Translations under genes and position numbers: made by a program
Notes under the pieces: generated by a model
Databases searched by the model: none
Seen by the model: only the letters and a program-made list of their open reading frames with translations
What the model was told of the DNA's origin: nothing
In this document: one piece after another, positions 10,433-26,341 of the stretch
Numbering within the stretch: position 1 is the first letter of the stretch
Layout of the letters: each line of letters opens with the position of its first letter
IMG/VR virus record: IMGVR_UViG_3300027861_001752
Span: 1 to 27,929 of that record
DNA length: 27,929 nucleotides
From: a virus
Strand: one strand, 5' to 3'

Positions 10433-12076
10433 TCATCCTTCACATGCTAAGCATGAGGAATCTTCTACCATTGCGCTCATATCTAGCTCTTGAATGATTT
10501 GTCTTTCAATTTTTTTGGACACCTTATCTGCTTTACTAATCTTTTCACTACGACAGTAATACAACGTCTTGAGATTTTTTTTCCAAGCCAGGTAATGTAC
10601 TGCATGAAGATACTTTATGTCTGCATTTGGTCGAAAGAACAGATTAATTGATTGTGCTTGATCTATATATTCTTGTCGGTCAGCTGCATGTTCAATCAAC
10701 CATCTTTGATCTATTTCCAAACTTGTTTTAAACACATCCTTCTCGTAATCATTTAAAGATTTTAAATGTTGCACAGAACCATCGTTTGAAATAATAGATG
10801 ACCACATTCTATCAATATCTAAAGTTTCATTCTCTTTACATTTTTGTTCTAACAACGTATTAAGATACTTATTCTTGTTCATGTAAGAACCGCTTAAAGT
10901 ATCTTGTCGGTACGCATTGGCACGGAATGGTTCTACACTTGGTGATGTATTACCCATAATGATAGATGAAGATGCGTTTGGCGCAATGGCTCGCATATGC
11001 GAAAATCTTTTCTTATATCCTTTCGCGTCAGGTGCTTCACCTCGTTCAACAGCTAATCTTTCATTTGCATAATCTAGACCTTCTTTAATGTGTTTCGCAA
11101 TACGCATGTTCAACGACTTAGCCATTGCAGACTCCATTGGAATCATTTTCTTCTGCAACAAAGCATGCCAACCAAGTTCACCAATACCGATACTACGTTC
11201 ACGAGTTGCAGAGTACTTTGCACGAGCAATTTCGTTCGGTGCATGATCGATAAAGTATTGTAGAACATTATCTAACATTTCAGCCACATCAAAAAGGAAT
11301 CTTTTATCTTTTGACCACTCATCAAAATACTCAAGATTTACCGAAGACAAGCAACAAACAGCGGTGCGTTTTTCATCTGTAGGCAAAATGATTTCAGAAC
11401 ACAGATTGCTTTGTTTTACAGACAAACCTTTCTTCTTTAACCACTCGGGTAGTTTTTCGTTTGATCTATCAATGAAGTGAATGTAGGGTTCACCAGTCTG
11501 CATTCTTATTTCAAGAATACGTTGCCACAATTCTTTTGCCGATACAACTTCGCGAACTTCATTATTATGTGGATTAATTAGTTCCCATGAATCGTCAGCT
11601 GACGGGTCTGTCATTGAATTTTCAATCTTCTGCATAAACGCGTCGCTAATGTTAATACCGTGGTGTAGATTCAGACAACGCATATTCTGATCACCAGTTG
11701 GTTTACGCATTTCAAGAAATAACAAAACATCTGGGTGTGAAATGTCAAGATATGCTGCATAAGAACCACGCCGAGTTTTACCTTGACGATATGCTAATGA
11801 GGATGCATCATACATTTTCAGATGTGGCATTACACCAGTGGACTTTTCACCTGCACTGCGAATACCAAAACCAACACCGACACCACCACCAAGCATAGAC
11901 AACCAGTTTGTTTCTGATAGGTTTTCTACAAGACCTTCAGCTGTATCTTCAATATAGTTAAGATAACAGTTATGGACAATCATATGATTTTTACCAACTG
12001 TAAAGGTATGATCATTAGACACCTGTAAATCGTGTACCCTAATTTCCTTATCTATCTTTCTTATCTTGAAATTCAT
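10433..12076 (-). CDS. nrdA: C-terminal part of split NrdA: intein C-fragment plus catalytic extein
   Basis: The 547-residue product begins with a 36-residue intein C-fragment ending MIVHN, followed by Cys37, which is the first residue of the C-extein. The extein (511 residues) is the class Ia reductase large-subunit core. Cys37 in CYLNYIED corresponds to the first catalytic Cys (Cys225 of E. coli). Asn224, Cys226 and Glu228 (SNLCSEI) match Asn437, Cys439 and Glu441, and Cys241 matches Cys462. The radical-relay Tyr pair is in TLYYCR near residue 508, and the C-terminal shuttle Cys pair is CLAC just before the end. Spliced to the N part, NrdA would be 596 residues with no N-terminal ATP cone. 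GAGG lies about 11 bases before the ATG. Confidence 0.93.
   Translation of the reverse strand: MNFKIRKIDKEIRVHDLQVSNDHTFTVGKNHMIVHNCYLNYIEDTAEGLVENLSETNWLSMLGGGVGVGFGIRSAGEKSTGVMPHLKMYDASSLAYRQGKTRRGSYAAYLDISHPDVLLFLEMRKPTGDQNMRCLNLHHGINISDAFMQKIENSMTDPSADDSWELINPHNNEVREVVSAKELWQRILEIRMQTGEPYIHFIDRSNEKLPEWLKKKGLSVKQSNLCSEIILPTDEKRTAVCCLSSVNLEYFDEWSKDKRFLFDVAEMLDNVLQYFIDHAPNEIARAKYSATRERSIGIGELGWHALLQKKMIPMESAMAKSLNMRIAKHIKEGLDYANERLAVERGEAPDAKGYKKRFSHMRAIAPNASSSIIMGNTSPSVEPFRANAYRQDTLSGSYMNKNKYLNTLLEQKCKENETLDIDRMWSSIISNDGSVQHLKSLNDYEKDVFKTSLEIDQRWLIEHAADRQEYIDQAQSINLFFRPNADIKYLHAVHYLAWKKNLKTLYYCRSEKISKADKVSKKIERQIIQELDMSAMVEDSSCLACEG
11969..12076 (-). other. Split-intein C-fragment coding segment
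   Basis: Thirty-six codons with the intein block F pattern VHDLQVSNDHTFTVG and the block G ending HMIVHN, then Cys as the +1 extein residue. The penultimate His and terminal Asn needed for Asn cyclisation are present. The fragment has its own ATG, so it is translated separately from the N-fragment, as expected for trans-splicing. Confidence 0.92.
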
Positions 12077-12165
12077 TTCTATTATTACCTCTTTTATACT
12101 ACTTATTTAAATCTATAACCGGGTGTTTACCAATGTCTTCAATATACTTTAGAAAACAACATTTT

Positions 12166-12173
12166 TATAAATA
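12166..12173 (+). promoter_or_regulatory. T4-type late promoter for the HNH endonuclease gene
   Basis: TATAAATA matches the T4 late promoter -10 consensus exactly. The expected transcript would start a few bases before the AGGAAA ribosome-binding site and the ATG at 12204. It is on the strand opposite to the interrupted nrdA gene, so endonuclease expression would be late and independent of nrdA. Confidence 0.65.
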
Positions 12174-12203
12174 TAATAACATGATGCATAGGAAACCGCA
12201 ACT

Positions 12204-13130
12204 ATGGACAAAGAAAATCTATATGAAATATTATCAAAAATTCCTCATAATCGACATTATCTGCTTAAGTATGTGAATTTTATTTATTCTTGCCAACAGT
12301 TAGACTTTAGTTCGTGTATCTACGCTGAAAATCACCATATATGTCCTAAAGCTAAAGAAATGTTTCCTGAATTAACAAATGAAAAATGGAATATAGTTAG
12401 ATTACCATATCGCCATCATGTAATTGCCCATATTTTTCTTTATAAAGCTTTCAAAAATGATTCTATGACCACATCTTTACTATTCACAACAAAACAGAAA
12501 CATGCTAAAGATTTGAGCATTTCGAAAATTAATACTAAAATAATAGAAGAAGCTAAAATCAATTTATCAAAACTCCGCAAAGGAAAAAGAACTCATAATT
12601 TTAGCGAATCTTGTCGCAAAAAACTTTCAGAAAAAAAATCTGAATTTTATAAAAATCCTAAAAACCGCTTGATGCACTCAATAGCATGCACTGGATCAAA
12701 AAGAATCAATAAAAAGAACATAGAATTAGCATCCTTAAATAGATCCACCGAGCATCAAGAAAAACTTAACAAAAGCATCAAAAGTTCTTGGTCAAATAAG
12801 ATTCAAAATGGTTATAAAGTCATACCAAAATTCTTATATTTGACACCTTATGGTATCAGAAGCAATGTCGGTAAATATCGCGAATATTGTAAAAATCCCG
12901 ACAAACCCATTTCTATACATTCAACTAAAGGATCTAATCCTGCTTTTCCAAAATCATGTATAGGGAGAACACCTAGAGAACTAGGGTTCTCCCTAATTGA
13001 AAAATCTAATCCTGAATATGAGCGATTTCATGCATTGTTGGATCAAGTTCATCAACTCTCATCCAACCATGTTCTTTGGTCATTATTAGATGATTTCCCG
13101 TTACGAGAAAAACTTCATTCGCAAAGGTAA
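12204..13130 (+). CDS. HNH homing endonuclease inserted between the two nrdA/intein halves
   Basis: The 308-residue protein has an HNH core: ENHHICPKA (His44-His45), Asn63 in KWNIVRL, and RHHVIAHIFL with His71/72 and His76. Around residues 130-150 it has KRTHNFSESCRKKLSEKKSE, similar to the NUMOD3 DNA-binding helices found in phage HNH and GIY-YIG homing enzymes. It is basic throughout. It lies antisense to nrdA between the intein N- and C-coding segments, the position where a continuous intein would carry its endonuclease domain. The last 41 or so codons overlap the intein N-fragment on the other strand (13006-13130), so that tail is probably an accidental extension. AGGAAA is about 10 bases before the ATG. 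The likely target is an intein-free nrdA allele (inference). Confidence 0.88.
   Translation: MDKENLYEILSKIPHNRHYLLKYVNFIYSCQQLDFSSCIYAENHHICPKAKEMFPELTNEKWNIVRLPYRHHVIAHIFLYKAFKNDSMTTSLLFTTKQKHAKDLSISKINTKIIEEAKINLSKLRKGKRTHNFSESCRKKLSEKKSEFYKNPKNRLMHSIACTGSKRINKKNIELASLNRSTEHQEKLNKSIKSSWSNKIQNGYKVIPKFLYLTPYGIRSNVGKYREYCKNPDKPISIHSTKGSNPAFPKSCIGRTPRELGFSLIEKSNPEYERFHALLDQVHQLSSNHVLWSLLDDFPLREKLHSQR
12961..12995. terminator. Long hairpin just after the intein N-fragment stop
   Basis: A 10-bp perfect stem (12961-12970 with 12986-12995) continues, after one bulged A, into a 5-bp stem (12972-12976 with 12981-12985) with an AGAA loop. It begins 10 bases downstream of the NrdA N-part stop on the minus strand and lies within the HNH frame on the plus strand. 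There is no clean T-run right after it on either side, so it may be a transcript-stabilising 3' hairpin rather than a classical terminator. Confidence 0.5.
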
Positions 13131-13533
13131 GCTCGTAAATATCATTCGAAGTCGAGGCTCTTGTCTCTTCAACTTCTTGATATTCTCCAGTATGTGTTAA
13201 TACCTTATCTCCAACGCAAATATCTTCAATTTTCTTAAAACCGTTCTCGGTACGAACGAGAGTACCGTCGCCGAAGCACGAGATAGGTAAACCTTTTGAA
13301 CTACGACCAAACGATAGAATTGGAGTAGAATAACTCAACCAATGTTTTGAACTGTAATCGTATAATCTTTGTGCGTGTTCCGAATCACTTGCAAACTGTC
13401 TTGATACAAACGCAAATCGTTCTTGTGGTGAGATTTCTGTTTCCATCATGTATGATTCGCGAAGTCTGCGAATACCATACTCGTCAATAAGTTTATCTCT
13501 ATTTGGATCTATCGTGAGTCCGTGGTGTTCCAT
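13006..13533 (-). CDS. nrdA: N-terminal part of split NrdA fused to intein N-fragment
   Basis: Residues 1-85 are the start of the reductase large subunit (the segment ending SKHWLSYSTPILSFGRSSKGLPIS aligns with the region before the first catalytic Cys). Residues 86-175 are an intein N-fragment starting at Cys86, after which the frame stops with TAG. The product cannot be active alone: it lacks every catalytic residue of the reductase. Trans-splicing with the C-part would restore NrdA by joining Ser85 to the catalytic Cys. AGGAG is five bases before the ATG. The nuclease gene ends 9 bases upstream, so it is in the same transcript as primase, thyX and nuclease. Confidence 0.93.
   Translation of the reverse strand: MEHHGLTIDPNRDKLIDEYGIRRLRESYMMETEISPQERFAFVSRQFASDSEHAQRLYDYSSKHWLSYSTPILSFGRSSKGLPISCFGDGTLVRTENGFKKIEDICVGDKVLTHTGEYQEVEETRASTSNDIYELTFANEVFLVTGNHLIMTKEHGWMRVDELDPTMHEIAHIQD
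13009..13278 (-). other. Split-intein N-fragment coding segment
   Basis: Ninety codons with block A (CFGDGTLVRTENGFKKIEDI, including the nucleophile Cys1), the VGDKVLT strand, and block B (VTGNHLIMT, giving the Thr-x-x-His motif), then GWMRVDEL and a stop. With the 36-residue C-fragment it makes a 126-residue intein without an endonuclease domain, a normal mini-intein size. The split falls between blocks B and F, as in other natural split inteins. Confidence 0.92.
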
Positions 13534-21000: not shown

Positions 21001-21228
21001 TCAATTTCTAAATGGATTCAATCCCATGGCAACTCTTGCATATCTGTCAGCTGTTCTTTCTTTTCTGTCAACTTCCGAAGAGTTGCCTTTTAGATCAGCG
21101 CTTTGTGCTTTTGAGTATTCTCTATCTTCTCGATCCTTAGCGATTCCCTTTCCATAACCAGGAATTACCTTACGCTTAAGACCTTCAATACCTTTGGCTT
21201 CATTAACAAATTCTGTAAATGTTTTCAT
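21001..21228 (-). CDS. Basic protein with a capsid-targeting-like N terminus
   Basis: A 75-residue, highly charged protein beginning MKTFTEFVNEAK, close to the T4 internal-protein targeting peptide MKTYQEFIAEA. Val-Asn-Glu followed by Ala resembles the T4 prohead protease site (Leu/Ile-x-Glu, cut before Ala). The rest is rich in Lys, Arg, Glu and Asp, with RKVIPGYGKGIAKDREDREY and ADRYARVAMGLNPFRN. The start is set by an ATGA overlap with the upstream member of the same group. Predicted, not shown, to be packaged in the head. Confidence 0.75.
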   Translation of the reverse strand: MKTFTEFVNEAKGIEGLKRKVIPGYGKGIAKDREDREYSKAQSADLKGNSSEVDRKERTADRYARVAMGLNPFRN

Positions 21229-21395
21229 CTCATGCCTCGTTTTTTCATTAGTTCGATGGCTTTTCGATTTTGTTCCTTTTGATGTTCGTACTTGTCCTGT
21301 TTTGCTTTCTTTCGACTCTCGGGTGTTCCGCCAAAAATTCCAGCCATAGGATCTACTGGTTTCCAGTTTTCAACAAACTCTTTAAATGTTTTCAT
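21225..21395 (-). CDS. 56-residue basic protein with a capsid-targeting-like N terminus
   Basis: The frame begins MKTFKEFVENWKP and ends RKAIELMKKRGMR, with PMAGIFGGTPESRKKAKQ between. It is flanked tightly: six bases after the stop of the zinc-binding neighbour and an ATGA overlap with the next gene, which also starts MKTF. The N terminus matches the other four members, though a clean Leu/Ile-x-Glu cleavage site is not obvious. It falls below common length cut-offs but should be treated as a real gene. Confidence 0.8.
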   Translation of the reverse strand: MKTFKEFVENWKPVDPMAGIFGGTPESRKKAKQDKYEHQKEQNRKAIELMKKRGMR

Positions 21396-21401
21396 ATGTT
21401 T

Positions 21402-21605
21402 TTATCTTTGTGTTCCATTTGTACCACGAGTATAATCACGTGGTCCAGGTTTACATTTAGGATTAGTGCAATCTTTATCCATACCTTCATTAAAATCTAT
21501 ATCTTTACCGCATCGGGCACAAGGTATTACATTTTCTGGATCCCAGTTTGCTGGCTTTGATTTTGATTCTGAAAATTTTTCTAAATATTCTTTAAAAGAT
21601 TTCAT
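21402..21605 (-). CDS. Zinc-ribbon-like protein with a capsid-targeting-like N terminus
   Basis: A 67-residue protein starting MKSFKEYLEKFSESK, similar to the T4 internal-protein peptide, with Phe-Ser-Glu followed by Ser as a possible protease site. The middle has CARCGKDIDFN and DCTNPKCKPGP, two Cys pairs that could bind a zinc ion. The tail is basic. It overlaps the upstream member by 14 bases. If packaged, it would enter the cell with the DNA; its target is unknown. Confidence 0.75.
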   Translation of the reverse strand: MKSFKEYLEKFSESKSKPANWDPENVIPCARCGKDIDFNEGMDKDCTNPKCKPGPRDYTRGTNGTQR

Positions 21606-21942
21606 TGGCCATTGTTTTCTTTAGCATTTTTAAGTCTTGTTTATTCGCTTTACCAGATTTGGTAACTCTTGTAGGCTTTTTCTTTGCTAGTTTATCCTTG
21701 GGTGCCAGTGCCAGTTTTTCTTTAGCCTTGTCTTTCGCACTTCTTGAACCTACCTGACGACCGTATCCATCGACCCAAGAAATTCGACTAGCAAATTTTT
21801 TACCATGCTCTCTTTCAGCTCTTTTTATAATTTTACTGTCATCACCTGCCCTATCATCATCATACGTCATGTTTTTACTTTGCATCGCTCCAACATAAGT
21901 CTGTTTACTAATCTCTTCTAAATAGTCTTTAAATGTTTTCAT
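21592..21942 (-). CDS. Lys-rich protein with a capsid-targeting-like N terminus
   Basis: The 116-residue protein starts MKTFKDYLEEISK, in which Leu-Glu-Glu followed by Ile fits the Leu-x-Glu prohead protease rule. The body is strongly basic in its second half (KDKLAKKKPTRVTKSGKANK), suitable for binding DNA inside the head. It is the first of four neighbouring genes of this kind. A late promoter consensus lies about 57 bases upstream, inside the preceding gene. No enzymatic motif is visible. Confidence 0.78.
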   Translation of the reverse strand: MKTFKDYLEEISKQTYVGAMQSKNMTYDDDRAGDDSKIIKRAEREHGKKFASRISWVDGYGRQVGSRSAKDKAKEKLALAPKDKLAKKKPTRVTKSGKANKQDLKMLKKTMANEIF

Positions 21943-21945
21943 TGG

Positions 21946-22143
21946 TTATCTCCGTTTGTTCATTTTTTTGTAAAGTGAGAATACTTTATTGCTTGCAGTA
22001 TTTATAAAAAAGAAAGGTATAAAAGCATGAACGAAGGCCGCAAGTGTAAGTAGTAGAAAGGTAAAACTAAACCCTAATGCAACACCCATATGTTGCAGAT
22101 AAGTTTCACCGACTTCTTTAGGATGTTTTGTAAATGGGTTCAT
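21946..22143 (-). CDS. DUF6356-like membrane protein
   Basis: The 65-residue protein reads HPKEVGETYLQHMGVALGF near the start, then a long hydrophobic region containing FVHAFIPFFFINTAS. This is the pattern of DUF6356 proteins, which I know mainly from alphaproteobacteria. Their function is unknown. A host-type membrane gene inside a phage late unit suggests acquisition from the host lineage. It is coupled by ATGA to the structural gene upstream. Confidence 0.75.
   Translation of the reverse strand: MNPFTKHPKEVGETYLQHMGVALGFSFTFLLLTLAAFVHAFIPFFFINTASNKVFSLYKKMNKRR
21999..22006 (-). promoter_or_regulatory. T4-type late promoter before the MKTF gene array
   Basis: The minus strand reads TATAAATA within the DUF6356-like gene, about 57 bases before the first of four genes with capsid-targeting-like N termini. 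An exact consensus in this place fits late synthesis of head-packaged proteins, although a chance match in AT-rich coding DNA is possible. Confidence 0.5.
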
Positions 22144-22922
22144 TGTTCTTCTTTAATTAACAATATGTCAAAATGTGTAGTAACTGGTGGAGTGCCCGAA
22201 GTACTCTTTGCTCTTACTTCAAAGTCTAGCCCAGTACCGTTAAATTTGACCGGATATGTGTATTCAATAACAGAGGCTTGATCTTTCAATATAAGTTCGT
22301 CTGCTATTCTAAATCCTTTATTTTCATTTTCTCGGACTAACAAATATCCAGATCCATCGATATTGGTACCGGAAGGATTTGAGATAGAAAATCCCCAGGC
22401 ATGAATATAAGCACAATAACCTGCTGGAGGCGAGTACATCCCAAGTTGAGTTTGACCAAGATTGGCTTCTATTTGAGCCACAGTATAATTGTACTGATTA
22501 TGTACTGCTGTTATATCACCAACATTTGAATGTAAAAGATTCGTAACATTGTTTGCTGTAGAACCTAAGTCATCGACAAACATTCTATTGATTCTAAAAT
22601 AATCTTTTATTGTGGTTACTGAGTTTGTACCATTCAAGGATAGAGTTTCTTGAATGGGTTGTCTGGCTGCATCAAGTCCCTGTATTACGATATTTGAAGC
22701 GCCAAATGACGTACTAATATCATCGGAACTTGTAGAAGAAATTGTAAGTGTATTTGCTGCTTCTGGCCATTGATATTGTCCGCCAACAGGCCATACAGTC
22801 TCAAAAGATGTTCCTAACGCTGGATTCGCACCAAACTTATGGACATGTTGCGCACCGCGTTCTACACCACGAGACACATTTAAATGAAAATATTCCTTAT
22901 GAATAAAACGTTGATCACTCAT
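22140..22922 (-). CDS. Probable virion structural protein
   Basis: A 260-residue protein rich in Ser, Thr, Asn and Gly with alternating beta-strand character (for example NTLTISSTSSDDISTSFG and NIVIQGLDAARQPIQETLSL) and no catalytic motif. It starts FIHKEYFHLNVSRGVERGAQHVHKFG. Composition and position among late genes support a head or tail decoration protein. I do not recognise a named family. Its ATG directly follows the TAA of the upstream gene. Confidence 0.65.
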   Translation of the reverse strand: MSDQRFIHKEYFHLNVSRGVERGAQHVHKFGANPALGTSFETVWPVGGQYQWPEAANTLTISSTSSDDISTSFGASNIVIQGLDAARQPIQETLSLNGTNSVTTIKDYFRINRMFVDDLGSTANNVTNLLHSNVGDITAVHNQYNYTVAQIEANLGQTQLGMYSPPAGYCAYIHAWGFSISNPSGTNIDGSGYLLVRENENKGFRIADELILKDQASVIEYTYPVKFNGTGLDFEVRAKSTSGTPPVTTHFDILLIKEEQ

Positions 22923-23408
22923 TTATTTTCCTGATAAAGCTCTTCTTAATATTTCTTTGCGTTTCTTTCTGTCCTTAACAGGTTTCCAATGAGCCACATC
23001 ACTACCTGCACCTGGTACTTGGGGTGTTGCGTTTACTGGTGTTGCAACAGCAATTTCTTCCATCAAATGTTCATTTTGTTTAAGATATTCTATGTTTTCA
23101 AAGATAATATCAAGTAGTTCTTTATCAGAATACTCTTTGTTCTCTTCTTCTTTCAAAAGAAATAAAGCCGCTGCAAATGTAGCCATTTTACTCTGTAAAC
23201 CGACCTTTGCGAGCAATCTCTTTAAATTAAAAATAAATCTAAAAAAGTAACTATAGGCCTGTTTTTCCTTTTTCGTCTTTGGTCGCTTGAGTAACTTTCC
23301 TTTCTCATCAATAAGACCAAGCTCAAAGGCCTTAGTCTCTTTGAAAGGAGTTGAAAGTTCTCTTATAATTTTATAGAGAACGAAAAGATTGACTACTTGT
23401 TCAGCCAT
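22923..23408 (-). CDS. Conserved T4-like phage protein of unknown function
   Basis: The 161-residue protein is mostly helical: NLFVLYKIIRELSTPFKETKAFELGLID, then KTKKEKQAYSYFFRFIFNLKRL. Similar openings (a 'FxxYKFIRxLxTPF...D/AYxLGIID' pattern) occur in marine T4-like phages as I recall, without known function. A Pro/Val/Ala linker near residue 125 leads to a basic tail (DRKKRKEILRRAL). It follows a 17-codon micro-frame by one base. A head or tail assembly role is likely from its position only. Confidence 0.65.
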   Translation of the reverse strand: MAEQVVNLFVLYKIIRELSTPFKETKAFELGLIDEKGKLLKRPKTKKEKQAYSYFFRFIFNLKRLLAKVGLQSKMATFAAALFLLKEEENKEYSDKELLDIIFENIEYLKQNEHLMEEIAVATPVNATPQVPGAGSDVAHWKPVKDRKKRKEILRRALSGK

Positions 23409-23409
23409 T

Positions 23410-23463
23410 TTATGCTAAGTTCCTACCAATCGGTATCTGAGTAGTACCTTTTGTTGTTTTCAT
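23410..23463 (-). CDS. Possible 17-residue microprotein
   Basis: A micro-frame starts in a TAATG overlap with the upstream gene and stops one base before the next ATG (TAA-A-ATG), filling a 54-base gap exactly. It encodes MKTTKGTTQIPIGRNLA. Either it is a real microprotein or a translated spacer that keeps ribosomes coupled across the junction. Confidence 0.4.
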   Translation of the reverse strand: MKTTKGTTQIPIGRNLA

Positions 23464-23855
23464 TATAGTTTCCTTAGTTTATGAATGATGTACTCGTCCA
23501 TGGGCACATCACTCCCGATTATTGTTTCTTTTTCGTAACCAATCGGTTCTATTTTATCCTGCCAATACGACAGATACACCAAAAATGGTTTCAAATAATT
23601 TAGATGACCATTCAACTTATAACATAACATTCGTGTACAAGCTTCATGATAAAACACATTATACAACACGATCAAATGATTCATTATTAATCTTTCATTA
23701 ATATCATTTTTCTCTCTGTATCTAGCAAATAATCTTTTAATAGATTTCATTCTAGCCAAATCTTCAATAAACTCTATCTCGTCTGCTCCGTTAGGATTAT
23801 CATAATATTTTGCAGCATATAGAATAAAATTACTATCATCAAGTGTATCAAACAT
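23463..23855 (-). CDS. DUF7207-like marine phage protein
   Basis: The 130-residue protein contains NFILYAAKYYDNPNGADEIEF, then LARMKSIKRLFARYREKNDINERLIMNHLIVLYNVF, a pattern of a small helical protein conserved in marine T4-like phages (I recall it as DUF7207, not verified). It is soluble. No catalytic residues can be named. It sits between two structural-type genes. Confidence 0.7.
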   Translation of the reverse strand: MFDTLDDSNFILYAAKYYDNPNGADEIEFIEDLARMKSIKRLFARYREKNDINERLIMNHLIVLYNVFYHEACTRMLCYKLNGHLNYLKPFLVYLSYWQDKIEPIGYEKETIIGSDVPMDEYIIHKLRKL

Positions 23856-23867
23856 AAATTATTTTTC

Positions 23868-24236
23868 TTATGGTGTAAAGTCGGATAAAGCCACTCTTTT
23901 TAATGTTCCTTCCGCATCATTGTCTGATACAGCAACATAAAGATAATTTGCATCCCAAACAATTGTGCCCTTTGGATTCGCGCCAAACTGTGTGGTAGCA
24001 TTGTTAGATGATGGTGTAGTTGGACCACTGAGTTTTAAATTACCAGTAATACTTGTATTACCAGACACAGTTAGTGTCCCAGTAACAGAAGTGTTACTTG
24101 GAATATTACTAACTAGGTCAGATACACTTAAACTCTTTGTTGCTGTATTATTTGCATCAACAATGACAAATAAATCATCGGCAGCAAGATTACTGCCGAT
24201 GACTGCTGGTAGTTGCGATATTTTTAAATCAGCCAT
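23868..24236 (-). CDS. Short fibre-like structural protein
   Basis: A 122-residue protein beginning ADLKISQLPAVIGSNLAADDLFVIVD, an opening seen in many marine phage fibre or neck proteins, followed by repeated short beta segments (TSVTGTLTVSGNTSITGNLKL) typical of trimeric fibre shafts. It ends TLKRVALSDF. There is no enzymatic motif. It is probably a virion fibre, collar or adhesin piece. Confidence 0.7.
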   Translation of the reverse strand: MADLKISQLPAVIGSNLAADDLFVIVDANNTATKSLSVSDLVSNIPSNTSVTGTLTVSGNTSITGNLKLSGPTTPSSNNATTQFGANPKGTIVWDANYLYVAVSDNDAEGTLKRVALSDFTP

Positions 24237-24247
24237 TTAGTTGCTCC

Positions 24248-24895
24248 TTAAACGACTGTAAACTCGCCATTTGAAAGTACATTGCTCACAACGTCTAACA
24301 AAGTGTTTGAAGTAGTTGCACTAATTGTTAATGATGCTGCTTCTCCATCAAAGTTTGTGCTTGTTGGTGCAGCAAGAGATGTTAATAAATCTTCAGATTT
24401 TAATTTAAAGTTACCAGTACTGCCAGGTGTTCCAGTAAACACGAGTGTGTTGTTGGCTACATACTCATCATACTTTGCTTCTGATGTTGCATCGTTTGTT
24501 GTATTTGATGTGAAAGTGATTGTAGTGACACCATCTCTTTCTCTTGCAGTAAGAACAACATTTGCAGAAACAGCTAATGGTTCGTTCCATGTGACATAAA
24601 CAGTCATTGGATCAGATGTATTAAATGTAGCAATACCTGTTGCTGTGTTTGCACCAAGTTGAAGCAATGTGATATCTGGTTCACCCAGATTTGCTGAGTT
24701 AGCATAACCACCTGTTGTTCCACCAGGGTGTGCAGCGATGATTACTTCTTCTTTTACACGCTTAGTTCCATGAACGTCTGTATAAACTTGTTGACGTACC
24801 CAACCCTTATCGGTTGCAACTACGTTTCTTTTTGATGCGATTGAATCTGCTTCTGGAAGTGGTTGTTCTCCCGTTGTAAAGTCCCATGTAGACAT
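24248..24895 (-). CDS. Beta-rich virion structural protein
   Basis: The 215-residue protein starts STWDFTTGEQPLPEADSIASKRNVV and has DKGWVRQQVYTDVHGTKRVKEEVIIAAHPGG around residues 30-57. After that it is Thr, Ser and Asn rich with Ig-like beta character (MTVYVTWNEPLAVSANVVLTA). This suggests a head-surface or tail decoration protein. A CATAAATA late promoter candidate lies about 70 bases upstream. Family not recognised by name. Confidence 0.7.
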   Translation of the reverse strand: MSTWDFTTGEQPLPEADSIASKRNVVATDKGWVRQQVYTDVHGTKRVKEEVIIAAHPGGTTGGYANSANLGEPDITLLQLGANTATGIATFNTSDPMTVYVTWNEPLAVSANVVLTARERDGVTTITFTSNTTNDATSEAKYDEYVANNTLVFTGTPGSTGNFKLKSEDLLTSLAAPTSTNFDGEAASLTISATTSNTLLDVVSNVLSNGEFTVV

Positions 24896-24963
24896 TTTTG
24901 TTTCTCCTATTGTCTCTTTTCGTGATTAATTTATCGTAATCTTTACTCGGCATTATATAAGTT

Positions 24964-25560
24964 TTATTTATGTTCTCCGCGAGTCTTAGCCATTATTTCA
25001 TCCGCGTGTGGATGAAGTGCTGTCGGCAGACCCTTTTTAAACGATTCTTTATCGTTATTGTGTGCATGTTCTCTCATTTTAGTCCCAGATATACCAGATG
25101 TTCCTTCTGCATCCGGATCTCTATGACCTGCACTTTTCACTTTGATACTCTTATAGTTATAATGACCTTCTTTGCCATTATATTTATTTAATAGAGTACC
25201 CATTTCCTTTACTCTATCACTACCAACAACGACAGTCAGGTGTTCATGGCCGGCATCGTGTAGTCTTTTTGCGTGATGAAGTATAGTTGGTTCTTCTTTT
25301 GAAGATGCCGACACATTTACGCCCTTTGGTGCAATCTTTTTTACATATTTTGCTTTATGATCTGGATGTATCGGATTCTTTTTCGCGTCATGGCTGTGCG
25401 AAACCACCACATATGCTGATGCACCCTGCGACTCTGCTTCTTTATGAACTGCATGTATAAGTTTCTCATGACCAGTAGTAGGCGGATTCATTCTACCATA
25501 GGTCATTACGGCTCTTTTACCAGAAGTTGATTCGTAAATAAATTGCTTAAAAGTTTTCAT
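24964..25560 (-). CDS. Nucleotidyltransferase (cytidylyltransferase-like) with a capsid-targeting-like N terminus
   Basis: After MKTFKQFIYEST, which resembles the T4 internal-protein peptide and has an Ile-Tyr-Glu/Ser protease-like site, comes a nucleotidyltransferase domain. GRMNPPTTGHEKLI (residues about 22-35) contains the Thr-x-Gly-His form of the HxGH motif, VVVGSDRVKEM is near 110, and GISGTKMREHA near 157 is the ISSTxxR equivalent. Such domains transfer NMP groups, as in NMN or phosphopantetheine adenylyltransferases. The substrate is unknown. The ATG overlaps the stop of the DPCW gene as ATGA. An enzyme carrying a head-targeting peptide would be injected at infection, like T4 Alt (inference). 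Confidence 0.82.
   Translation of the reverse strand: MKTFKQFIYESTSGKRAVMTYGRMNPPTTGHEKLIHAVHKEAESQGASAYVVVSHSHDAKKNPIHPDHKAKYVKKIAPKGVNVSASSKEEPTILHHAKRLHDAGHEHLTVVVGSDRVKEMGTLLNKYNGKEGHYNYKSIKVKSAGHRDPDAEGTSGISGTKMREHAHNNDKESFKKGLPTALHPHADEIMAKTRGEHK
24965..24972 (-). promoter_or_regulatory. Near-consensus late promoter upstream of a structural gene
   Basis: The minus strand reads CATAAATA (one change from TATAAATA) at the very 3' end of the nucleotidyltransferase gene. A roughly 70-base leader with no gene follows before the ATG at 24895. Confidence 0.5.
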
Positions 25561-25688
25561 TCGTATGTTGACTTGTTGAGTTCATTGACCTCTTCAGTTT
25601 CTTCAGGTACGCAGTTAGGAACAGTTTTGCCATTCTTTTTCTTCGTGCCAACCATTTTATAGTTATCCCAGCAAGGATCATTTTTCAT
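25557..25688 (-). CDS. 43-residue DPCW-motif phage protein
   Basis: The protein reads MKNDPCWDNYKMVGTKKKNGKTVPNCVPEE and a short acidic tail. The pattern DPCWxxYxMVGxKKKxGKxVPNCVP is very common in T4-like and marine phages, often near head or core proteins, with no assigned function. Both ends are ATGA overlaps, with the Cys-rich gene before it and the nucleotidyltransferase gene after it, which makes it a secure gene despite its length. Confidence 0.87.
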   Translation of the reverse strand: MKNDPCWDNYKMVGTKKKNGKTVPNCVPEETEEVNELNKSTYE

Positions 25689-26341
25689 TTCTTTGTTTCA
25701 GTAAAAGTAACTGGCGTTTCGTTCTTATCTACTTTTGGATTGATAACGACTTTATCACCGTCTTTTAAAGAAACTTCTTTATCGCCCTTCAGTTTCTTAT
25801 GTTTGTTTTCGGAAACAGTTTTGTTTCGTTTAGGCTGAAAGTTCCATTTAGGACGACCATTTTTACCTCTAGTGACAGTAGCTATTCTTAGAGTTCTCTT
25901 CTCCACACGTTGTGTTTCTTCACTTACAGAAGAACAGCCAGCACAGTGACAGTCAGGTCCACATTCACCACCACATGAACAATCAGGACCACACATACAT
26001 TTTAGATTCAGATATTCTTCCGACTCTTTAACTTGTTTTTTTTTATTACGATGCTGTTTACCGATGGCTTTCTTAATTGCTTTTCTACGTTTTCTTAAAT
26101 ATCTATCAGTAACGTCTACTACGCCATCATTATTGATATCAGAGTCCTCTTGTCCAACTTTATCTAACGTAATTTGTTTATGAACCTTTCTTCTATGTCT
26201 TTTACCAGTTTCTGGATCTTTATAGAAAATAACTCTTCTATCAGCAGAATAAACTGAATCAGAACGACTACGTTCAGCAGCTTCAGTAATCTCTTTTACG
26301 GCTTCAACCAATTTATCTGGTTGACGAAAAATGTTGGTCAT
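25685..26341 (-). CDS. Basic protein with an EF-hand/dockerin-like loop and a metallothionein-like Cys cluster
   Basis: The 218-residue protein is very Lys/Arg-rich. Residues 68-79 (DINNDGVVDVTD) form a calcium-binding loop of the dockerin/EF-hand type. Residues 115-136 contain eight Cys in 22 residues, in the pattern Cys-x-Cys-Gly-Pro-Asp-Cys-x-Cys-Gly-Gly, repeated with a His among the ligands, which resembles metallothionein. The remainder, with KPKRNK-like stretches, suggests a nucleic-acid or head-core partner. AGGAG lies five bases before the ATG, and an exact late promoter is at 26369. I know of similar N-terminal parts in marine phages, but the Cys cluster is unusual to me. Function unknown. 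Confidence 0.75.
   Translation of the reverse strand: MTNIFRQPDKLVEAVKEITEAAERSRSDSVYSADRRVIFYKDPETGKRHRRKVHKQITLDKVGQEDSDINNDGVVDVTDRYLRKRRKAIKKAIGKQHRNKKKQVKESEEYLNLKCMCGPDCSCGGECGPDCHCAGCSSVSEETQRVEKRTLRIATVTRGKNGRPKWNFQPKRNKTVSENKHKKLKGDKEVSLKDGDKVVINPKVDKNETPVTFTETKK

Follow-up and report, generated by a model that had tools for sequence, protein, structure and literature searches.

The internal proteins (IPs) of bacteriophage T4 are injected and block restriction enzymes. A short peptide, the capsid-targeting sequence (CTS), is the feature by which the internal proteins of T-even coliphages are recognised, according to a passage in PMC12373910 that cites Repoila et al. 1994. In mutants of T4 IPIII, residues 4 and 7 of this peptide chiefly served targeting and residues 8 and 10 served processing, and Black's review suggested that the CTS may be the means by which the capsids of T4-like phages acquire additional proteins (PMC9026906). 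Here we compare with these proteins the products of five genes in a stretch of 27,929 nt (the window; IMG/VR virus record IMGVR_UViG_3300027861_001752, positions 1-27,929), all of which start with MK(T/S)F-x-x-(F/Y)-(V/L/I), hereafter the tag. The five are probably a T4-type capsid-targeting set of a divergent T4-like (Kyanoviridae-like) phage. The open reading frames (ORFs) had been picked out in an earlier note on this DNA; all were present at the coordinates given there, all lie on the minus strand, and their N termini were exactly as reported (↓ marks a possible cut):

21001-21228, minus strand: gene 21001, small basic tagged protein of 75 amino acids (aa), N terminus MKTFTEFVNEAK
21193-21228, minus strand: tag of gene 21001 (first 12 codons), possible cut VNE↓A
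21225-21395, minus strand: gene 21225, small basic tagged protein of 56 aa, N terminus MKTFKEFVENWK
21360-21395, minus strand: tag of gene 21225, Glu9 and no Glu10
21402-21605, minus strand: gene 21402, small Cys-rich tagged protein of 67 aa, N terminus MKSFKEYLEKFS
21570-21605, minus strand: tag of gene 21402, Glu9 and no Glu10
21592-21942, minus strand: gene 21592, basic tagged protein of 116 aa, isoelectric point (pI) 10.0, N terminus MKTFKDYLEEIS
21907-21942, minus strand: tag of gene 21592, possible cut LEE↓I
24964-25560, minus strand: gene 24964, tagged nucleotidyltransferase of 198 aa, HIGH superfamily, like nicotinamide or nicotinic acid mononucleotide (NMN/NaMN) adenylyltransferases, N terminus MKTFKQFIYEST
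25525-25560, minus strand: tag of gene 24964 (first 12 codons), possible cut IYE↓S

Comparison with the T4 internal proteins

The genes from 21942 to 21001 formed a tight operon of four with overlapping or nearly abutting ends, and the fifth tagged gene (25560-24964) lay 3 kb upstream and had the same orientation. When the first 12 residues were removed, the mutual best non-self E was about 1, confirming that the bodies are unrelated apart from the peptide. The types proposed earlier for these bodies stood in part: all five were basic (pI 8.4-10.0) and gene 24964 encoded a nucleotidyltransferase; zinc binding by the product of gene 21402 is suspected from its CxxC...C....C pattern. A Pfam search found no recognisable enzymatic domains in the four small genes, and a back-translated search of IMG/VR returned no relatives of genes 21592 and 21001.

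Under a chance model of the motif MK/R-T/S-F/Y-x-x-F/Y-LIVM, with positional residue frequencies taken from 3,757 called phage genes, 0.004 motif genes were expected among the approximately 46 of the window, and the probability of at least five was about 5e-15. The DNA pattern ATGAARWSNTWYNNNNNNTWYNTN occurred 5 times in the window, compared with 0 times for a control read backwards. Codons for the shared residues varied synonymously across the five tags, showing that a peptide is shared and not one recently copied DNA stretch.

The motif was present in IPI, IPII and IPIII of the T4 genome (NC_000866). The form MKTYQEFIAEA, attributed earlier to T4 internal proteins as a group, was correct for IPII and IPIII but not for IPI, which begins MKTFKEF; the first seven residues of the gene 21225 tag were identical to those of IPI. 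The aromatic residues at 4 and 7 and the aliphatic residue at 8 were kept in all five window tags and Glu10, the processing residue, in three, positions that fit the IPIII mutational data (PMC9026906) and favor the packaging route proposed in the earlier note. A Leu/Ile-x-Glu site, previously ascribed to most of the five, was found in three (VNE↓A, with Val, LEE↓I and IYE↓S) and was missing from 21225 and 21402. In IPI the Ile-x-Glu site lies further down (STITE↓ATLTSEV), beyond the targeting start, indicating that the targeting and cleavage elements need not be contiguous. Residues 1-57 of gene 21001 weakly matched PHROG 2667 'internal head protein' (E = 0.009); IPII and IPIII matched the same family at E 0.006-0.009, via the tag alone.

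The resemblance to the T4 IPs also covered small, basic, unrelated bodies, several per genome, in clustered genes. The window phage differed in being divergent and marine-type, in having Phe instead of Tyr at position 4 (as does IPI), in bodies that showed no similarity to T4 IPs outside the tag, in the nucleotidyltransferase nature of one body and in two tags without Glu10. T4 Alt (N terminus MELITELFDED), a head-packaged ADP-ribosyltransferase (ART), is likewise a head-carried enzyme with a short N-terminal propeptide (MELITELFDE), and related contigs encoded tagged ART proteins. However, the window enzyme belongs to the nucleotidyltransferases of the HIGH superfamily instead of the ARTs, and its tag sequence differs from that of Alt. 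T4 itself has a further, uncharacterised gene with such a start: gp61.1 (gene 61.1, NC_000866 18966-19130, here L353:1167-1331; 54 residues) begins MKTFKEFIKED and is therefore a candidate internal head protein of T4, although we found no report of it in virions.

The tags also resembled a site that is cut in the head. The major capsid protein junctions of relatives, with cut positions inferred from the known T4 gp23 site (FLTE↓AEIGG), read FLSE↓AAPTNS, LLGE↓AAPTNQ, ALFE↓TAPTNS, AIFE↓AAPANS and FLGE↓IANVTG, so that their ends, (F/L/I)(L/F)xE, resemble the tag ends F-(L/I/V)-x-E. One cluster of tagged proteins (L316) began MKTFKEFIQE↓AAPTNSVTSGG, the post-cut residues of the capsid protein included. 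Cleavage after Glu is plausible to probable in three of the five window proteins, judging from these letters. The capsid junction bears as well on whether the peptide directs proteins into the particle's tail or baseplate instead of the inside of its head. Tail-fibre-like genes do occur among the tagged or virion genes of the cyanophage S-SCSM1 and of the window, but the match to the T4 CTS register and to a capsid protein junction specific to prohead processing makes that destination improbable.

Packaging in the head is likely and well supported. By analogy with T4 IPIII, each protein would attach to the prohead core through its aromatic residues 4 and 7, and the three that have Glu10 would be cleaved behind it by the prohead protease gp21. 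Once freed, the bodies would remain inside the head alongside the DNA and be delivered to the next host on infection, as in T4; injection and the blocking of host defences, the last step proposed earlier, are extrapolated from T4 IPI-III and Alt.

The tag in virion proteomes and uncultured phages

S-CREM2 is a T4-like cyanophage with a published virion proteome (PMC10665884, Table 3) of 51 of its 215 annotated proteins. A motif in the T4 register was set before looking, with the start residue alone freed, which admitted a GTG start. It matched four of the 215 proteins, and all four were in the virion proteome (Fisher p = 0.003; p = 0.0004 with structural proteins excluded), showing that the motif selects virion proteins in an independently published data set. 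They were an S-adenosylmethionine (SAM) hydrolase (MKDFDSFLEE), a 79-residue protein (MKDLHSFLTE), an APH-like kinase (VKRFDAFLTE) and a cytidylyltransferase (MKNFSSFLTE), the last being the homologue of window gene 24964. With two relaxed forms of the motif, chosen post hoc, five of six and six of seven matches were in the virion. Three of the six S-CREM2 proteins designated non-structural by its authors carried a T4-register tag, and a fourth, ORF12, read LRFASFMAEA from residue 17. ORF12 (L349; annotated as Cas9; in the virion) and proteins of the S-CRM01 g128 region (L358) had a common start, (M)xSRWxxWSxG, and about 17 residues in came a tag-like sequence, FASFMAEA or LDSFIKEA. A position at the very terminus may thus be dispensable for the tag. 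In S-SCSM1, the NMN adenylyltransferase (NMNAT), annotated as a virion protein, had the N terminus MKSFLQFLKEAAE. S-CBWM1, checked as a possible further proteome, had no match to the cytidyltransferase.

The DNA encoding MKTFK(Q/E)FIxE was then scanned for in 2.9 million IMG/VR viral contigs, with the same codons in a different order as the control. At least 120 stretches were found for the tag and none for the permuted codons. Among the matches listed, 127 of 128 started an ORF with a minimum length of 40 aa, BLASTP sorted the sequences following the tag into 62 unrelated clusters, and homologues of proteins from T4 or from the S-CREM2 core set were also encoded at 95 of 118 tagged loci. All five large tagged contigs tested had a gene for a T4-like major capsid protein. 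In an alignment of 55 tagged proteins the invariant columns were only the eight residues fixed by the search, and the remainder was unalignable. Thus, in other T4-like contigs as well, the tag marked gene starts joined to dozens of unrelated bodies. Pfam cargo behind it included ART-PolyVal ADP-ribosyltransferase (9.7e-24), SAM lyase (2.4e-17), zeta toxin (5.3e-15), glucosaminidase and sigma-70 region 4. A first set of relatives was rejected as statistics, MKTFKQFI having been the search seed, and was replaced by the control scan and the S-CREM2 proteome.

Several records carried many tags: the pattern was counted ten times in a 118-kb contig and five or six times in each of four others (reversed controls 0-1), with plausible ORF starts at most of the candidate tags read, often in runs. 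In the 118-kb contig (G013, L379-L382), five of the ten matches were consecutive at approximately 30.2-33.7 kb, near the capsid gene at 41.8 kb. Polyvalent proteins (PMC5512222) are comparable in their unrelated effector domains and predicted co-injection with DNA, and one tagged protein had the ART-PolyVal domain. They are large and multidomain, whereas the tagged proteins were mostly small separate genes, each with its own tag; a 1,617-aa protein of one relative (L002) was the exception.

These data bear on whether the shared start reflects no targeting role at all, but efficient translation initiation (an AAA second codon and an A/T-rich start) or a recently copied 5' end. Lys is common at position 2, the window is A/T-rich and four of the genes are adjacent, as that explanation would have it. 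However, permuted codons of equal composition gave no hits in the scan, Phe/Tyr at 4 and 7 and Glu10 were conserved amid synonymous variation, and the motif predicted virion proteins in S-CREM2, so initiation or copying is already disfavoured and is highly improbable as the cause.

It is unlikely, though less so than those, that packaging serves assembly, the tagged proteins being components of the prohead core or helpers that condense DNA, and not effectors for injection into the host. The basic character of the small proteins and their lack of recognisable enzymatic domains would suit such a role, T4 IPIII has a morphogenesis phenotype, and the IPs co-purify with the scaffold gp22 (PMC9026906). 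By contrast, cargo elsewhere was mainly unrelated and partly enzymatic (ART, zeta toxin, SAM lyase, sigma-70), unlike conserved structural parts, and T4 Ip1-3 inhibit different GmrSD enzymes, one each (PMC12373910). The four small window cargoes are basic and fast-evolving, of the IP type; they may inhibit host nucleases like Ip1-3 or may have a core role, both being candidate functions.

Several observations weigh against the proposal of a capsid-targeting set. Two of the five window tags (21225 and 21402) had Glu9 in place of Glu10. The majority of S-CREM2 virion proteins lacked the motif, and the authors of that proteome cautioned that abundant non-virion proteins may co-purify (PMC10665884); co-purification, for its part, would be blind to the sequence of the first ten residues. 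Of the two motif proteins of S-SCSM1, one lacked a virion annotation and was not detected. The searches made for relatives of the four small genes were negative, so it is the tag by itself that points to their packaging. No gp21, gp22 or gp23 was found in the 28-kb window, so its head machinery is presumed; T4-like primase-nrdA-nrdB synteny was present in the window, and gp21 and gp23 were present in relatives. A strict whole-genome motif gave few or no matches in the T4-like phages KVP40, Melnitz, Syn9, DLP6 and phiM12, indicating that the exact MKTF form is clade-dependent and that looser forms are needed there.

A search of the open-access literature, with subscription papers mostly outside it, found no report of a CTS in cyanophages or other marine T4-like phages, and the published work on S-CREM2 and S-SCSM1 did not connect virion presence with an N-terminal peptide. 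The mechanism is known; the lineage and the cargo are new, and the wider survey of the tag is more interesting than the five members in the window. On balance we lean toward the view that the CTS is a portable loading code across the T4 superfamily, marine and cyanobacterial phages included, with which uncultured phages carry many different injected effectors in an arsenal readable from sequence alone. Candidate tags reached about ten per contig, with cargo including NAD-type nucleotidyltransferases, ADP-ribosyltransferase, SAM lyase, kinases and sigma-factor domains. The tag would then flag, from sequence, proteins likely to be delivered at the moment of infection; if this holds across marine T4-like phages, virion proteomics becomes a sequence search and the anti-defence and takeover candidates of uncultured phages can be listed. 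The kinases, SAM hydrolase and NAD-type nucleotidyltransferases found in cyanophage virions, which are puzzling there, would also have a simple explanation.

The nucleotidyltransferase encoded by gene 24964

Gene 24964 matched PHROG 3041 (6.7e-59) and Pfam PF01467 and had the HIGH-like motif NPPTTGH (class motif (T/H)xGH) together with SGTKMR (class motif SxTxxR); G30, H31, S158 and R163 were invariant in 20 relatives. Searched against PDB by sequence, the single sequence had no match and a profile had one weak match; the fold search did better. The structural model (pLDDT 89) best matched NaMN adenylyltransferase 8aih and FAD synthetase 2x0k, and phosphopantetheine adenylyltransferase was also among the fold matches. 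Residues 4-12 formed a separate helix in front of the catalytic fold. The domain was complete and the tag missing in the closest relative (L002, 73-75% identical) and in two others, and other relatives carried divergent tags such as MLDFKSFLAEA, MSKEYKQFIKES and MTSFSSFKDYLVED, indicating that the tag is a separate, movable part.

S-CREM2 ORF154 and S-SCSM1 ORF91 (cytidyltransferase/NMNAT) agreed with gene 24964 in being homologous enzymes, in the kind of tag and in their neighbourhood before primase-nrdA-nrdB. Both were detected in virions by mass spectrometry. The window enzyme has just one domain, 198 aa long. The NMN/NaMN-adenylyltransferase-like cargo could adjust host NAD+ at once, and early NAD adjustment is the simplest guess at a candidate function. 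If so, delivery of an NAD-making enzyme from the head would plausibly counter NAD-depleting defences without delay.

In L002 (9992-14845), the cytidyltransferase came first in a 1,617-residue polyprotein with a very basic stretch that, by eye, was like window gene 26588. FEEYITE and FEDFTNE stood between its parts; the excess of these two tag-like internal sites was not significant (p = 0.07). The cytidyltransferase of L077 had the C-terminal end SFKTFLGL, and S-SCSM1 ORF93 (L359:7627-7836), an annotated virion protein, ended in KRTFKEFLEYIE, resembling a C-terminal tag. A general C-terminal tag, suggested by ORF93, was rejected when a census showed no trend.

Neighbouring genes in the window

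The stretch from the cytidyltransferase to primase-nrdA-nrdB corresponded to S-CREM2 ORF154-164 and S-SCSM1 ORF91-100. Virion proteins among the matches were S-CREM2 ORF154 and S-SCSM1 ORF91 for 24964, S-CREM2 ORF160 for 25557 and S-SCSM1 ORF95 for 24248; window 22140 matched the virion protein S-CREM2 ORF176, which is located elsewhere in that genome. Two further features lay beside gene 24964:

25557-25688, minus strand: untagged 43-aa ORF with a CWxxYKxxGTKKKxGKxVPNCVP module, matching S-CREM2 virion protein ORF160 (E = 1e-6)
25685-26341, minus strand: basic 218-aa protein in which VKEITE↓AAERS near the start may resemble a gp21 site; membership of the set uncertain

The 43-aa ORF probably encodes a virion protein, to judge by this match. 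Its module stood behind a T4 tag in another contig (L387:6788, MKTYQEFISEAKKCWPGYKKKGT). The virion proteins S-CREM2 ORF160 and S-SCSM1 ORF97 (L347, L359) opened with a duplicate of the major capsid protein arm that follows the cut, GFTGAAAPEGPVAGYDPLMG, adjoining a CWPGYxKKGTK module that is also present at window 25557-25688.

The window nrdA (10433-13533, minus strand) was in two pieces. The piece at 13006-13533 ended in an intein N-half (Hint_2, 1.4e-8), and that at 10433-12076 began with a likely intein C-half (MNFKIRKI...VHNC). An ORF at 12204-13130 (plus strand) sat between the halves on the opposite strand. The arrangement looks like a split intein with an inserted separate gene, perhaps a homing endonuclease.

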